NCBI GenBank assembly: GCA_913775095.1
Contig: CAJYIW010000019.1
Location: 310,001-374,000, forward strand
Direction: 5' to 3'
From: an uncultured Siphonobacter sp.
GTDB taxonomy: Bacteria; Bacteroidota; Bacteroidia; Cytophagales; Spirosomataceae
Length of the DNA stretch: 64,000 bases
This document shows, one piece after another, positions 10,360 through 43,478 of this stretch (position 1 is the stretch's first letter; the number at the start of each line of letters is the position of its first letter). Below the pieces are notes generated by a model. That model worked only from the letters and a program-made list of their open reading frames with translations, ran no database searches and was not told the origin of the DNA. The translations under genes were made by a program, and so were the position numbers.

Positions 10360-10650
10360 TTAGGCGGTAGATAAGATAGAGGGTAATTACGAAAACGAAT
10401 ATAGTTCAGATGCCGCTAATTACTATACGTTAAATTGAGACTTCTCTTAACTTTTAATGTATTTCTACTTACGGGGTATACATAGAGTAGACCAATCACA
10501 ACGAAGGTAAATTCATTGAGACTTTTAAATTACGAATGTCCCAGGCACTACGTCTAACTTTTTTATAGGAAGCGGGTAGTTCATTTCTTCACAAAGCGGG
10601 TCACTCCTGAGGAAGAATGAAAGTCCTTACGTAAATAAACACGTCTTCTA

Positions 10651-16249: not shown

Positions 16250-16963
16250 TCAAGGGTGGTCAGGCGTCGTTTCGGAAGGATTAATCCGGAAATTTTGTAG
16301 AATTTCGGTCAGCTTTTCTTCCACACTGGTCAGGTTACGCTCCAGCACATCGCGAAATTTACTTCGGTGTTCGGCACTGCTTTGTTCCGTACTGAGCAGG
16401 GCGGCGGCTCCGCTTACCAGTCCCAGGGAACCCCTGGCATCGTGGATCAGACGTCTAATGAGCGAAGCCCGGTCGTGGATGAACCCCTGTAAATGCAGGT
16501 TCGTACGGTTCAGTTCAGCCTGCTGTTCAGCCAGTAATGCCCGTGGTCGTTCTTCCCATACCTTTACATTAGTCTCAATTACTTTGTGCACCGCTGTTAA
16601 CACTGCCTGACTCACCTGCGTCAGAAATGAATCAGACGGATGAAGGGGGCGGTATCCCTGGATTTCCGGGAGTAAAAGCAAAGAAAAGGAATGAAGTTCA
16701 GCGAGCAGGGGAGTGATCTCAGCAGAAGTATTGGAGCGGCTGAACACCGGAATGTTCGGCCCGGGCCCGCTACCGGCCCCTCCGTCCAACGCTACAAAGA
16801 AAGGAAGACTTTGCCGAAGGTAAGTCCAGAGTTCATTCTTTTCTTCGGTAGTCATGACGCCTGACTGGCCGCCATCCATCTGCTGCCAGGACGAGTCAAT
16901 GCCGGCCCGCCGTAGAGATAAATAGTCAGAAAAGTCATTTATTTCTTTAGAAATAAAGCCCAT
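16250..16963 (-). CDS. Orphan HisKA-domain protein lacking an ATPase domain
   Basis: The 237-residue protein aligns along its whole length with the N-terminal half of the histidine kinase at 41930-43207. The N-termini EINDFSDYLSLRRAGI and QVNKLTDYLFSRRETI correspond. The dimerisation helix RRLIHDARGSLGLVSGAAALL (His174) corresponds to RQVSHDLQGSLGMLSGVANLL (His186). The sequence then ends where the ATPase domain should begin. So it keeps a phospho-accepting H-box but no kinase. I infer a phosphotransfer relay, decoy or dimerisation partner. It is divergent from the NarL-type regulator 390 bases away, a plausible partner. Confidence 0.7.
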   Translation of the reverse strand: MGFISKEINDFSDYLSLRRAGIDSSWQQMDGGQSGVMTTEEKNELWTYLRQSLPFFVALDGGAGSGPGPNIPVFSRSNTSAEITPLLAELHSFSLLLLPEIQGYRPLHPSDSFLTQVSQAVLTAVHKVIETNVKVWEERPRALLAEQQAELNRTNLHLQGFIHDRASLIRRLIHDARGSLGLVSGAAALLSTEQSSAEHRSKFRDVLERNLTSVEEKLTEILQNFRINPSETTPDHP

Positions 16964-17210
16964 GAAATTTAATTGAATAGTAATCTAATGGATAATTTAA
17001 ATTTAAAATATAATGATAATTGACAGGCTGTATAGATTGAAGTTCTAATGATTGAAAGATTATTATAAAACTATAATAAATAAAATATTAAAAGAAGATA
17101 GTACTAATTATGAATACACCATAAGTTCCGCCAAGTGACTCCAGCGTATTTAAATTAATACTATCGACTTTTAACAAAAGTACTGCGATTATTTTAGCGA
17201 TAATATAACT

Positions 17211-17264
17211 AGTTTAATCCTAAATATACCCCCTATTTTTAGGGGGTATATTTAGGATTAAACT
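17211..17264. promoter_or_regulatory. 25-bp perfect inverted repeat with C5/G5 core
   Basis: The arm AGTTTAATCC plus TAAATATACCCCCTA (17211-17235) is repeated exactly in reverse complement at 17240-17264, around a TTTT loop. The core CCCCCT-N6-AGGGGG (17229-17246) recurs with the same spacing at 19075-19092. It lies about 105 bases upstream of the regulator gene. As DNA it may be an operator for a dimeric LuxR/NarL-type protein (half site TACCCCC); as RNA or cruciform it would form a strong hairpin. Confidence 0.6.
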
Positions 17265-17304
17265 TAAAGTAGAATATAGGCAAATATAAACCAGGTAATA
17301 CCTT

Positions 17305-17312
17305 TATATTTG
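17305..17312 (+). promoter_or_regulatory. Probable -7 element of the response-regulator promoter
   Basis: TATATTTG fits the Bacteroidota consensus TAnnTTTG exactly and lies 40 bases before the start codon. No clear TTTG is found at -33, which would fit a promoter needing an activator bound at the upstream palindrome. Confidence 0.45.
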
Positions 17313-17351
17313 CTTTTTTATCAATATAAATGCTACTAAACCACTTTACGG

Positions 17352-17978
17352 ATGACCATTTCAATCATTGATGATCACGTAGTAACGGGGGAGTCCTTGA
17401 AAGTAGTCCTGTCACTGAGCCATCCCGATGCTTCCGTTCATTATTACAACAGCACGGCAGCTTTTCTGAAAGATCCGGATCATACCGCTACGGACATCAT
17501 CATTATAGACTTGCTCATGCCTAATGATTCTGGTCTTGAGTTTATTAACACCTTTCGGGCTACCTTCGAGAAAGCCAAGTGTATTGTCGTTTCGGCACTG
17601 TCCGACAATCATACCATTCGTTATGCCCTTCGGATTGGAGTGGATGCTTACGTCTCCAAAACGGATTCTCTCACTGAAATTACCAGGGCTATTACCAGCG
17701 TCATGGCCAATCAGCAATACCTGAGTACCAGCATTCGCAATAGTTTAATTGATTCGATTATTGTGAATGAAAAAGTGGTGTTCCATTTAACGCCCCGGGA
17801 AAAAGAAGTACTGAAATTCGTTTGCAGTGGGCAGACCATCAAAGAGACGGCTTATCATTTGAAAATTAGTGTACATACCGCTCAGGAACACTATAAAAAC
17901 ATCATGCGAAAGTTTAACGTGAACCGAACCAGTGATTTAATAGTTTTTGCCATTAAACACGGACTTTATTACATTTAA
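17352..17978 (+). CDS. NarL/FixJ-family response regulator
   Basis: An intact 208-residue two-domain regulator. The receiver has the acidic pair DD (7-8), phospho-acceptor Asp53 in IIIDLLMPNDSG, Ser81 and Lys103 (VSKTDS). The LuxR helix-turn-helix spans about 144-205, starting LTPREKEVLKFVCSG and ending FNVNRTSDLIVFAIKHGL. It would bind DNA as a dimer on phosphorylation. No full kinase is adjacent; the divergent orphan HisKA protein and the C5/G5 palindrome upstream are the closest functional clues. I infer autoregulation and control of nearby stress genes. Confidence 0.93.
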   Translation: MTISIIDDHVVTGESLKVVLSLSHPDASVHYYNSTAAFLKDPDHTATDIIIIDLLMPNDSGLEFINTFRATFEKAKCIVVSALSDNHTIRYALRIGVDAYVSKTDSLTEITRAITSVMANQQYLSTSIRNSLIDSIIVNEKVVFHLTPREKEVLKFVCSGQTIKETAYHLKISVHTAQEHYKNIMRKFNVNRTSDLIVFAIKHGLYYI

Positions 17979-18184
17979 AAAGGTGATTTTACGAAGAAGA
18001 TCGAGTGGAAATATCCTTAACCATTCAGTGAATATCCGCTTTTGATATAAGGTAGTTAAGTAAGTATATCAACCAATGGGGTCTCTTTCCGACCGGTAGT
18101 AATTAGCAACACCATCCGGCTTCAATCAGTGATTCATACCAGCCATTGCCGGTATGAACCCGAATGTAGTCATAACGTGCCTTT

Positions 18185-18940
18185 TCAATGGTGGTGGTGA
18201 GACAAAACTCCTTTGGTATCATTAGTGATTATTAACTGGCGAACTTCCCCCTGTTGCCAGGCATCGGCTCCGGGTTGTGGGGAAGGTACCGGAATATCCG
18301 CTCGATTTTTCTTTTTCTCGGCCGTTGAAATGCCAAAACGCTCATCACGGCTGGCAATCAGGCTATCCGCCAGTTGACCTTCCTGAGTAAATCCCATCAT
18401 CACCATGGGATGCCCCATGGGCAGCACCAGATCTTTGTCGGTGTGCCAGGTATGAAAAGTTTTGCCGTAGGTACTGACGAGTTTTTCCATTAATTCATGT
18501 TCGGCGACTTCGGGAATGCCCGGTGCGATCAGACTGCCGGATTTTACTTTGTGGCGGTGACTATGCCAGAGTTTACGTTCTTCAGCGGGAAGGGACTTAA
18601 AAATCTGCTCCGAGACGATGTATTCTACCCCCATGATTTTCGCATCGGCTTTATTGCCATCAAAAATGACGCACTGAATGCAGTCCTCGTTGATCTGGCT
18701 ACAGTAGTGGTGGGCTTCCATCTGACCGTTCAGATCGCCGTTGTAAAAGTGAAAGCCATCCAGGTACATATTCAGGGACTTCAGGGGTCTTTTGGCCTGC
18801 AGAAGATCAGCTCCTGCTTCCAGAATCCTACTGGTGTCCGTTTTTTCCCGTCCGGGCGAATCTACGTTGGAAGAGGTGTTTTTGCCGCCGCAGGCCAGAA
18901 GCAGCGAAGCACTCAGGAGGATGTTAAAGTGATGTTTCAT
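18185..18940 (-). CDS. OBAP/DUF1264-family lipoprotein
   Basis: The N-terminus MKHHFNILLSASLLLACGG is a lipoprotein signal with Cys17. The remainder is the oil-body-associated-protein (DUF1264) domain: LNMYLDGFHFYNGDLNGQMEAHHYC, QCVIFDGNKADAKIMGVEYIVS, LWHSHRHKVKSGSLIAPG, then TWHTDKDLVLPMGHPMVMM. The domain has many conserved His (EAHHYC, WHSHRH, WHTD) that might bind metal. The product also ends in four His. Function in bacteria is unknown; in plants the family associates with lipid droplets. It sits beside a Mn-catalase gene on the same strand and downstream of a C5/G5 palindrome, suggesting a stress role. Confidence 0.85.
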   Translation of the reverse strand: MKHHFNILLSASLLLACGGKNTSSNVDSPGREKTDTSRILEAGADLLQAKRPLKSLNMYLDGFHFYNGDLNGQMEAHHYCSQINEDCIQCVIFDGNKADAKIMGVEYIVSEQIFKSLPAEERKLWHSHRHKVKSGSLIAPGIPEVAEHELMEKLVSTYGKTFHTWHTDKDLVLPMGHPMVMMGFTQEGQLADSLIASRDERFGISTAEKKKNRADIPVPSPQPGADAWQQGEVRQLIITNDTKGVLSHHHH

Positions 18941-19074
18941 AAGAGCAGTGAACGGCTAAGAGAATACATACAAACACGTAGGAAATCAGGCATTGAACGG
19001 TAGAGTTCGAATTCAGAAGCATTGTCGCTTTCCGCTCGGAGTTCGTCCGTATTCAGGCAGTTGCTGGGGCGATA

Positions 19075-19092
19075 CCCCCTGAATGTAGGGGG
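19075..19092. promoter_or_regulatory. C5/G5 palindrome, second copy
   Basis: CCCCCT-GAATGT-AGGGGG, with TA before it, is the same architecture and spacing as the core of the repeat at 17229-17246. It lies 135-152 bases upstream of the OBAP gene and 24 bases upstream of a plus-strand promoter-like TTG. It is a putative regulator-binding site. Confidence 0.5.
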
Positions 19093-19151: not shown

Positions 19152-19359
19152 CACTCCACAACGTTCTGAACGTATGTACGGGTGCGTTCGAAAGAAACGT
19201 TCCGTTCAAGGGGTTGGAGGGGGGATACTACAACTCACCGACGAGAGCTCTGTTGGAGTGCCCCACTGCGAAAGCGGTAGGCTTCAGTACCATTCGATGA
19301 CCGCCTGTAATTTTATGAAGAGGCTTGTTCAGCTTAGCTGGGCAAGCCTTCCTTTTTTA
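19152..19359 (+). ncRNA. Candidate intergenic small RNA (~205 nt)
   Basis: A plus-strand Rho-independent terminator at 19321-19359 has no plus-strand gene in front of it for more than 900 bases, while a Bacteroidota-type promoter lies at 19116-19146. The transcript between them contains several short self-complementary stretches (e.g. AACGTTCTGAACGT near 19160-19174). The one ORF here runs through the terminator stem and is unlikely. The C5/G5 palindrome just upstream suggests regulated expression. This is inferred from signals only. Confidence 0.35.
19321..19359 (+). terminator. Intrinsic terminator on the plus strand
   Basis: AGGCTTG (19321-19327) pairs with CAAGCCT (19343-19349), with an inner AGCT/AGCT pairing, and is followed by TCCTTTTTT. 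The T-run is only on the plus-strand side, so it ends a plus-strand transcript. Confidence 0.65.
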
Positions 19360-19484: not shown

Positions 19485-20360
19485 CTAGAACAATGTTTCT
19501 TTTACTTTTTCAATGAAGCCATCGGCTCCTCCGGTCATTTGTTCCTGCTGGGCATATCCTTCCGGAGCGGGGGGGGCCAGCTGGGGTTCCTGTCCATGCG
19601 GCTGAGCGTGCTGATACGTAAACTCGCCTTTTCCGTCAATGGATGGTCCGGAAGCCCAGCGGGCATCGGGTGCGTCAGGACGGTTAATGTCCGTCGAGAT
19701 AAAGGCATAAGCAAATTCATTCGGCTGGCTGGTCATCGGAAACGAATTAGGAATGGGTAATGCATTCTGAACACCCCCTAACTCTTCCAGTACCGCTAAC
19801 CACTGATTCTGGTGCATGGTATCACGGGCAATGAGAAAGGACAGCATGTCTTTCATTCCGCTATCATCAGTGGCCTCATACAGACGGGTGGCCAGCACGC
19901 GTCCGGTGGATTCAGCCATGACGTTGGCGTACATATCGGCGGCGATGTTTCCGCTTCCTACCACCCAGGAGCCGTTAAAGGGAACGCCATTGCTATCCAC
20001 TGCCATGGCGGCCAAACCCGACGACAGGTAATGACGGGGGTCCATACCACCCATGATACCTGCCAGAATGGGACTTTCGGCGGCCATGCTATCCTTCAGT
20101 TCATTCGTGGCACCTTCCAGGTTAAGGGCTACGGCCGTAGCCAGCATTTCAATGTGAGCCATTTCTTCCGTTCCGGTTTCCAGAAGCATATCCTTGTACT
20201 TCTGCGGACCCCGGCTGCCCCAGGATTGGAACAAATACTGTAAACAAACTCGGATTTCTCCTTCAATCCCGCCGATAGCCTGTTGCAGTAATCGGGCAAA
20301 AGCCGGGTTGGGACGATCCACGCGAACCGTGTACTGGAGTTTTTTGTCGTGATAAAACAT
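19485..20360 (-). CDS. Manganese (non-haem) catalase
   Basis: The 291-residue product begins MFYHDKKLQYTVRVDRPNPAFARLLQQAIGG, the usual N-terminus of KatN/Mn-catalases, so I choose the ATG at 20360 rather than the longer frame from 20429. The di-manganese ligands are visible: EGEIRVCLQY (first Glu), TEEMAHIEML (Glu-x-x-His), then DMYANVMAESTGR and ARDTMHQNQWLAVLEEL (Glu and His of the second pair). It dismutates hydrogen peroxide to water and oxygen in the cytoplasm. The Pro/Gln-rich C-terminus (HGQEPQLAPPAPEGY) is commonplace in the family. Its neighbours fit a general-stress cluster. Confidence 0.93.
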   Translation of the reverse strand: MFYHDKKLQYTVRVDRPNPAFARLLQQAIGGIEGEIRVCLQYLFQSWGSRGPQKYKDMLLETGTEEMAHIEMLATAVALNLEGATNELKDSMAAESPILAGIMGGMDPRHYLSSGLAAMAVDSNGVPFNGSWVVGSGNIAADMYANVMAESTGRVLATRLYEATDDSGMKDMLSFLIARDTMHQNQWLAVLEELGGVQNALPIPNSFPMTSQPNEFAYAFISTDINRPDAPDARWASGPSIDGKGEFTYQHAQPHGQEPQLAPPAPEGYAQQEQMTGGADGFIEKVKETLF

Positions 20361-21137
20361 ACGAATAGTTGATTGTGTATAAACAGGTTTGGAATCAAAT
20401 CGGGATATTTGAAACAAATAATATTCCATTTGATTATTAGTTACAGAAGCGTAATTTCAGGTAAAAATGAAGACTTATATCCCCAGTTGTTTTTCGTAAA
20501 AATTATAAATATTTTATTATAAATAGATCATTATTTGAGTATAAGATTTTATAATATATACCCCTAATTTTAAGTACATAAGTGTTTAAATAGTGTACAG
20601 TTAATGATTTAATAACTAAATTTTATAATTTTTAATTAATTGATAATCAGTAATTTAAAAACAAATAGTTCTTTATATTATTATTTATTAAATCAAAATT
20701 GGGTAATAATTTTTCCGGGTAATATGGCACGAATATTTTCTTCGAAGGATTTCAGTGGATCGCAGGATGTAACTTTATGTTTGCGATTTAATATTGATAA
20801 AATTATCAAAGTGTAATCTTCCTTAAAATGAATGATTGTCGGGCATTGCATCTGTTTGTAAGACTTCAGATATGGCTACTAATCATGATTATATCGGAAA
20901 GAAAAACGTAGAAAAAACCTGCCGGAAGGGTGGAACGGTTTCCATGCCGGGAGAGTACGGATAATTCGTCAATAAAATCCCGACCTCATTACCCATCTGA
21001 TGGGTGTCAGAAGGGGCAAAACCCTAAGACCTATACTACGAAAAAGACATCATTGCCCATGGGCGTTTTCACGCCCTCAGGAATTCAGGTATTATCCACC
21101 TCCTGTTCCAGCCTTTTAATCCTATCTGTTCTTTTCT
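20361..21137. other. Very AT-rich spacer upstream of the Mn-catalase gene
   Basis: Nearly 780 bases without a convincing gene; about 20460-20720 is extremely AT-rich. It holds a half site TATACCCCTA (20557-20566) resembling the left arm of the C5/G5 palindromes, a short palindrome ACCCATC-TGATGGGT at 20991-21005, and a hairpin GGGCGT-tttc-ACGCCC at 21061-21076. An 81-codon ORF at 20930-21175 has poor composition and overlaps the next gene. Confidence 0.45.
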
Positions 21138-26688: not shown

Positions 26689-26835
26689 ATGAGCAAGGAA
26701 AGAAAAAACGATTATCGGAAGTACGGAAAATATGCCGATTTATATGCCCAGTTACCCGAAGGTGGTTCGTTCTTTGTTTCTGTGCGGGTAAAGGCAAAGC
26801 ACCTGATCCGCGGTGATAAGCCCCCCAGTATATAG
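26689..26835 (+). CDS. Small basic protein (48 aa), putative
   Basis: An ATG at 26689 opens 48 codons ending in TAG at 26833-26835. The N-terminal half is basic and aromatic (MSKERKNDYRKYGKYADLY) and the rest alternates as one strand (FFVSVRVKAKHLIRG). The stop codon lies within a C6/G5 hairpin followed by TTTTCTT, which would terminate the transcript immediately after the ORF. That ORF-plus-terminator arrangement supports expression. No family is recognised. Confidence 0.4.
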   Translation: MSKERKNDYRKYGKYADLYAQLPEGGSFFVSVRVKAKHLIRGDKPPSI

Positions 26836-26846
26836 GGGGTTTTCTT
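26821..26846 (+). terminator. C6/G5 hairpin at the end of the small ORF
   Basis: CCCCCC (26821-26826) and GGGGG (26835-26839), flanked by AAG on the left and TTTTCTT on the right. This fits an intrinsic terminator. The same sequence also matches the CCCCCW-N6-AGGGGG palindrome seen at 17229 and 19075, so a regulatory reading is possible but less likely. Confidence 0.55.
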
Positions 26847-43440: not shown

Positions 43441-43478
43441 CAAACCATAATAACTAAAAATTTAGTTATTATGGTTTG
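43441..43478. promoter_or_regulatory. 38-bp near-perfect palindrome upstream of the serine hydrolase
   Basis: CAAACCATAATAACTAAA (43441-43458) and its exact complement (43461-43478) are separated only by AA. It lies 43 bases before the chosen ATG. The inner AACTAAA/TTTAGTT core resembles operators of dimeric winged-helix repressors; no repressor gene is next to it. As it is AT-rich and precedes the gene, I read it as an operator, not a terminator. Confidence 0.6.

Follow-up and report, generated by a model that had tools for sequence, protein, structure and literature searches.

Conserved palindrome upstream of a response regulator gene of Siphonobacter: a probable gene-specific control element

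Background

Porphyromonas gingivalis belongs to the same phylum as Siphonobacter, and the control of stress responses in environmental members of this phylum has, to our knowledge, been little studied. Response regulators of the LuxR/NarL class often act on their own promoters, and the heptamer recognised by NarL reads TACYYMT. According to the accessible part of the source, the NarL operator has a 7-2-7 arrangement, in which two inverted heptamers lie 2 bp apart (PMC7419079). The nearest published case found for the palindrome described below is, judging from the available parts of the reports, the capsule locus of P. gingivalis, which comprises a 77-bp inverted repeat, the antisense RNA asSuGR and the response regulator PG0720 (PMC8757827; PMC3969353). 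A search of the open literature returned no description of the Siphonobacter element itself.

The window, that is, the whole stretch of 64,000 nucleotides analysed here, comes from the genome of an uncultured Siphonobacter sp. (5.65 Mb, the source genome below). It contains a long palindrome upstream of a response regulator gene, which the original prediction had taken for one of several sites of a local stress regulon. This reading is corrected here to one conserved site with no shared motif, and sequence comparison suggests that the palindrome is probably a single conserved, gene-specific control element.

Genes around the palindrome

Genes were called mechanically as open reading frames of at least 80 aa. 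The following ones surround the palindrome:

16250-16963, minus strand: divergent ORF from the ORF list, with a histidine-kinase-like H-box segment (IHDARGSLG, recognised by eye) and no Pfam match.
17352-17978, plus strand: response regulator of 208 aa, with receiver domain and LuxR/GerE HTH (Pfam PF00072, PF00196).
18185-18940, minus strand: DUF1264 protein (Pfam PF06884), named OBAP in the original prediction and in this text.
19485-20360, minus strand: manganese catalase (Pfam PF05067), with the start set at the conserved MFYHDKK.

Both domains of the regulator score above the cut-off (61.2 bits for PF00072 and 50.9 bits for PF00196), which assigns it to the NarL/FixJ type with a LuxR-type HTH, and its best solved chains are VraR and NarL. 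A NarL-type regulator had been predicted directly downstream of the first palindrome, and this holds; the palindrome is tied to the regulator in three species.

The comparison set comprised six genus genomes, three of which carry the hairpin. G002 corresponds to L036 and G005 to L035; each pair was treated as one contig, its hairpin sequences being in agreement. At E <= 1e-30, relatives of the regulator were found in five of the six genomes (two named records have an orthologue, Siphonobacter sp. SORGH_AS_0500 and the MAG of an uncultured Siphonobacter), and in all five the regulator gene is adjacent to an OBAP, Mn-catalase or DUF892 gene: OBAP and then Mn-catalase in the source genome, OBAP in G002, DUF892 in G005, and Mn-catalase in G003 and G001. 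Because the gene order varies between the species, the regulator is linked to stress-type genes by neighbourhood and not as one operon. At the thresholds used, G004 gave no match to the regulator, OBAP or Mn-catalase, and G005, which has the regulator, gave none to Mn-catalase. The stress-island context of the regulator is supported by gene neighbourhood, and to this extent the original prediction is supported. The OBAP gene of G005 (L047, G005:C252) carries an in-frame TAG, reflecting either a pseudogene or an assembly error.

The divergent ORF encodes 237 aa and matches, with 33% over 98 aa, a longer protein near the L036 regulator; such longer relatives are located near the regulator in both L035 and L036 (357 and 377 aa). 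Among solved structures, the L036 relative matches kinases only weakly, with E values of 0.045 at best and aquaporins ranked between them, so that a kinase role would be a guess.

Structure of the palindrome and its flanks

Three features were delimited upstream of the regulator:

17173-17178, no strand assigned: AACAAA box, common to the three palindrome-bearing genomes.
17211-17264, no strand assigned: perfect hairpin or palindrome of 54 bases, from inverted-repeat search, fold and two congeners.
17280-17319, plus strand: second hairpin, AT-rich and weaker, which has a T6 run behind it and lies shortly before the start of the regulator gene, from the fold.

Two divergent genes flank the palindrome, with their starts at distances of 247 bases and, for the regulator, 87 bases. 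Its arms (17211-17235 and 17240-17264) comprise 25 nt each, are 100% complementary and enclose a 4-nt loop, exactly the 25-bp perfect inverted repeat originally described at the first site. The core, TCCTA-N6-CCCCC-N8-GGGGG-N6-TAGGA, spans 17218-17257, and CCCCCTATTTTTAGGGGG is read inside the hairpin at 17229-17246. The 151 bases from 17190 to 17340 fold with z = -9.18, a stability equalled by none of 200 shuffles; on account of this value and of its conservation in two congeners, the hairpin is clearly beyond chance. Three other inverted repeats of the window are longer, with arms of 27-30 nt, and all of them lie at gene ends.

A DNA search of the source genome at E <= 10 revealed no copies of the hairpin, matching only the hairpin itself, and a repeat element or MITE was dropped as an explanation in view of this result and of the absence of the exact core half-site from any other place in the six genus genomes. 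A known RNA family was also discarded, since the Rfam matches at the hairpins all fall below the gathering score. The sigma-70 promoter scan remained at shuffle level (four found versus a mean of 3.1).

In the genomes that carry the palindrome, the AACAAA box precedes the C5 run by 56, 56 and 57 bases, a near-constant spacing; when the left flanks were shuffled by mononucleotides, three of 2000 trials yielded any 6-mer shared at equal distance (+-1). Within the second hairpin, TATATTTG (17305-17312) represents a -7-like box of the TAnnTTTG type, a consensus taken from the accessible part of its source (PMC9723704). The second hairpin was not recognised at the corresponding place in the folds of the two congeners and is absent from the terminator-scan output; a two-hairpin small RNA was dropped as a candidate, the T6-tailed hairpin being found in the source genome only. 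The idea that the downstream TTTA/-7 box keeps a fixed distance from the palindrome was likewise rejected: this distance amounts to 63.5 in the source genome, while the two congeners have 93.5 and 93.

Conservation upstream of the regulator

The regulator orthologues of G002/L036 and G005/L035 share 66-67% identity with that of the source genome, and a perfect hairpin is present upstream of each. The former has 26-bp arms with a 1-nt loop and ends 111 bases before the start codon, the latter has 22-bp arms with no loop and ends 116 bases before it, and the hairpin of the window ends 87 bases before it. The hairpin thus precedes the regulator in three of the five genus genomes having the gene. 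In the other two, G001 and G003, whose orthologues are 52% identical, no perfect upstream hairpin with arms of at least 12 was found; G003 contains only an imperfect pairing of CCCCCTAAATAT with ATATTTGGGG, which may or may not be related to the palindrome. Since these two orthologues lack a perfect upstream hairpin, it is, judging from the genomes compared, not essential to the regulator gene.

When the pairs are followed outward from the C5 run, 12 of the 18 compared between the source genome and L035 are the same and six are changed on both sides; for the source genome and L036, 12 identities are accompanied by 11 two-sided changes among 23 pairs, and L035 and L036 differ by three two-sided changes among 18 pairs, 15 being the same. 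No one-sided change occurs in any of these comparisons, which share sequences, three in all, and are therefore not independent. Pairing is kept while the sequence changes, as looked for in a cis-acting hairpin. The letters TCCTA-N6-CCCCC are kept in all three hairpins, with 8, 8 and 7 bases from C5 to G5.

The core half-site, TCCTAWWTNNNCCCCC, occurs six times in the six genus genomes, and all six occurrences are arms of the three palindromes; the control occurs twice. With one mismatch allowed there are 61 hits in these genomes, fewer than the 102 of the reversed control. The full core dyad was found in three of 200 family genomes, a draw from a larger group, at one place in each, while the control was found in none. 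The operator of a regulon should recur and this half-site does not, so that the element has the look of a control site for a single gene and not of a regulon operator.

Possible modes of action

The best explanation, to which we assign a probability of about 0.42, is that the palindrome would control the downstream regulator gene in cis, would serve this gene alone and would act mainly by folding. It draws on the position of the palindrome, its perfect pairing, the two-sided co-change in three species, the conserved core and the uniqueness of this core in each genome. In one variant, the regulator mRNA would start upstream of the palindrome and carry a leader hairpin of 22-26 bp, which could tune the elongation or the stability of the regulator transcript; in the other, the palindromic DNA would extrude a cruciform next to the regulator promoter. 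Either variant would affect expression of the regulator, with folding, and not base-specific protein binding, as the presumed active property. Folding is favoured because the outer arms keep their complementarity although the letters change: the outer seven read AGTTTAA in the source genome and TAATGGG in G002, differing at six of seven positions with perfect pairing in each. The inner core keeps its letters, as would suit either a protein or a structured RNA, and hairpin-templated repair might keep the arms perfect without selection. The spacing to the possible downstream -7 box, 63.5 versus about 93, counts against a folding mechanism.

A more detailed picture, which we consider doubtful, is that of a lineage-specific palindrome selected for its structure, the arms of which would be free to drift but stay self-complementary around a fixed C5/TCCTA core. 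As a cruciform or a leader hairpin, it would be a switch that responds to supercoiling or transcription and sets the level of the one regulator at the head of a stress-gene island.

The core that keeps its letters is also what one would look for in an autoregulatory DNA operator, where one or two dimers of the downstream regulator, or another dedicated protein, would bind TCCTA-N6-CCCCC and repress or activate the regulator gene. This possibility is somewhat unlikely. The conserved core is symmetric, the C5-N7/8-G5 spacing is found in all three species, the starts of TCCTA and C5 are 11 bases apart, i.e. on about one face of the DNA, and action on the own promoter is common in this class. The HTH of the regulator differs, too, in a way consistent with such binding: its sequence is HTAQEHYKN in the three species that have the palindrome and HTVQGYYNN in the two that lack it. 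However, the half-site recurs nowhere else in the six genomes without mismatches and is, as given above, underrepresented at one mismatch, and symmetry, but not sequence, is maintained in the outermost 7 bp of the arms. The 7-2-7 spacing of NarL is also absent. The original suggestion of a NarL-type site fails at this point: 8 bases separate the half-sites, and no 7-2-7 match in the intergenic region (16964-17351) is better than one with mismatches at 4 of 14 positions, which is located at 17311, off the palindrome. A NarL 7-2-7 operator was consequently dropped.

Long hairpins at gene ends

The hairpins of the source genome were sampled in 454 kb of the contig that carries the window (C19:200001-654000). 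This sample contains 27 perfect hairpins with arms of at least 18, of which 18 are in convergent, seven in tandem and two in divergent regions; 25 of the 27 lie within 50 bases of a gene 3' end, and each of the seven in tandem gaps within 20 bases of one. For comparison, 200 kb of G009 contain nine such hairpins and 200 kb of G030 four. With arms of at least 20 there are 13 convergent, four tandem and one divergent, the last being the palindrome at 17211-17264, among 67 divergent gene pairs. Long perfect hairpins are therefore the usual style of gene ends in this genome, and the palindrome does not have the position of a terminator. The gene-end hairpins are also perfect Watson-Crick stems and presumably act as RNA, and for this reason the lack of G-U pairs in the palindrome is compatible with an RNA form.

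The palindrome might nevertheless be the terminator or boundary of an unannotated small transcript that ends in the divergent region, in either direction. The location of 25 of the 27 long perfect hairpins at gene 3' ends, where they probably act as RNA, is in line with this, as is a pattern scan that calls the core terminator-like on both strands (two found, shuffle mean 0.0). Against it, the hairpin lies between two gene starts, and the only ORF of at least 80 aa ending within 500 bases is an antisense one inside the regulator gene (17412-17717, minus strand). No T-run follows the full stem, which is succeeded by TAAAGTAG on the plus and AGTTATAT on the minus strand; the palindrome is one of eight among the 27 whose 5' arm contains neither AAAA nor TTTT, and a terminator would not be expected to conserve the sequence of its core. 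Termination is thus an unlikely role.

Perfect hairpins with arms of at least 15 were seen in two other divergent regions of the sample, at 43441-43478 of the window and at C19:420937-420976. Both adjoin ORFs that resemble, by eye, sensor or histidine-kinase proteins, so that all three divergent-region hairpins of the 454 kb flank two-component-like genes, in small numbers.

The C5/G5 dyad and the proposed stress regulon

Two further sites had been connected with the stress-type genes:

19075-19092, no strand assigned: second CCCCCTN6AGGGGG (CCCCCTGAATGTAGGGGG), which precedes the OBAP start by about 135 bases.
20557-20566, plus strand: half-site TATACCCCTA, claimed to lie upstream of the Mn-catalase gene, not conserved.

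According to the original prediction, the regulator, OBAP, Mn-catalase and surface-protein genes share one operator. The letters of its sites are as described: CCCCCT-N6-AGGGGG is present at 17229-17246 and at 19075-19092, both intergenic in the ORF list, and GGGGTATA is read at 10474-10481 upstream of the surface-protein gene. The genome-wide scan proposed at that time did not bear out a shared motif. The exact dyad occurs at two places in the 5.65 Mb of the source genome, and so does its reversed control, while the core half-site is confined to the regulator. With spacers of 7-8 the C5/G5 dyad is found at four places versus six for the control, and in the six genus genomes at 12 versus 25; in the window, at up to two mismatches, there are three sites versus a shuffle mean of 2.93. 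The third of these, at 26822-26839, is terminator-like and stands at the end of a small ORF, and an operator cluster of three C5-N8-G5 dyads within 10 kb was dropped because this site, CCCCCC...GGGGGTTTTC, is of that nature. An excess of the shared C5/G5 motif over chance is not supported. The two dyads are alike in letters and are not equivalent. The small ORF at 26690-26840 of the window has about 49 codons and ends in a terminator-like C6-N8-G5-TTTT hairpin.

The site at 19075-19092 lies between the OBAP and Mn-catalase genes, both on the same strand, and the 331 bases around it fold like shuffles (z 0.20; 55 of 100). None of the four congeners having the OBAP gene carries a C5/G5 dyad upstream of it. 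In G005, which is alignable there, the site reads CATCCCTACGTTTGAGGGGTAT with 15 of 24 columns identical (window mean 10.4), and 51 of the 427 windows of this alignment are as good, so the block is not clearly better than its surroundings and was dropped as a conserved footprint. From these comparisons the site is judged not to be a conserved dyad, and its resemblance to the hairpin is probably a coincidence. The half-site predicted upstream of the Mn-catalase gene is present at 20557 and reads AATTAGGGGTATA in the source genome, but it is degraded in G002 (AATTAGGGAGTTC) and unrecognisable in G001 and G003.

A shared operator of a local stress regulon is, on these data, very unlikely. Sites in relatives are found at the regulator in three of five genomes, at OBAP in none of four and at Mn-catalase in none of three congeners, and sites upstream of several genes do not exceed background in the counts of the dyad and the core half-site; the part of the original prediction concerning the operator is not sustained. 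Several observations speak for a regulon. The regulator is linked to stress-type genes in all five genomes, and, at the thresholds used, it is jointly absent with OBAP and Mn-catalase from G004. The shorter motif ATMCCCCCT, defined after inspection of this very region, points the other way from the dyad: it occurs 45 times in the source genome versus 23 times for the reversed control, and five of the 45 fall within 3.7 kb at this locus, two as the palindrome arms, two upstream of the OBAP gene and one in coding sequence. This local excess somewhat favours a shared regulon, and with the C-runs partly retained upstream of the G005 OBAP gene (AGTATCCCC, CATCCCTAC...GGGGTAT) it leaves some room for that reading.

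ATCCCCCCT is located upstream of OBAP at 19218-19226, with AGTATCCCC at a similar place in G005. Of the 15 occurrences of TATACCCC in the 454 kb of the contig, five fall in the window. An operator of a CsoR/RcnR-type metal repressor, suggested by the resemblance of TATACCCCC...GGGGGTATA to what we take to be its operator, TACCCC..GGGGTA, was dropped as highly improbable, as a search that matches PF02583 in six of 14 control genomes found no such cognate protein in the assembled part of the source genome and the TA flank of the C5 run is not kept in the congeners, which read ATCCCCC...GGGGGAT.

Comparison with known systems

The conserved hairpin marks one response regulator, which adjoins an Mn-catalase, OBAP or DUF892 gene, as worth testing, and offers a compact, testable case for selection on the shape of a palindrome versus a base-specific operator sequence. 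It has perfect arms and a short loop in common with the hairpins that this genome carries at the 3' ends of genes, the arms of which are of 18-28 bp; unlike these hairpins, which are placed within 50 bases of a 3' end, it lies between gene starts and has a sequence core that is kept across species. As in the NarL 7-2-7 site, so far as the accessible part of its description goes, an inverted repeat is tied to a NarL/LuxR-type regulator, and the half-site of the source genome contains TACCCC, but the half-sites are 8 and not 2 bases apart and TAC is not kept in the congeners. The repeat of P. gingivalis, as represented in the available parts of the reports, is likewise a long inverted repeat that can form a hairpin and is found close to where a transcription unit begins; it was studied together with a response regulator and may form a stem-loop or cruciform. 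It has 77-bp arms and an antisense RNA that starts within the loop, whereas arms of 22-26 bp and loops of 0-4 nt are found here. According to the same parts, its regulator bound a 67-bp part, and not a 77-bp part, of the asSuGR promoter region (PMC8757827; PMC3969353), and the target is the capsule operon, whereas the gene linked to the Siphonobacter palindrome is that of the regulator itself.
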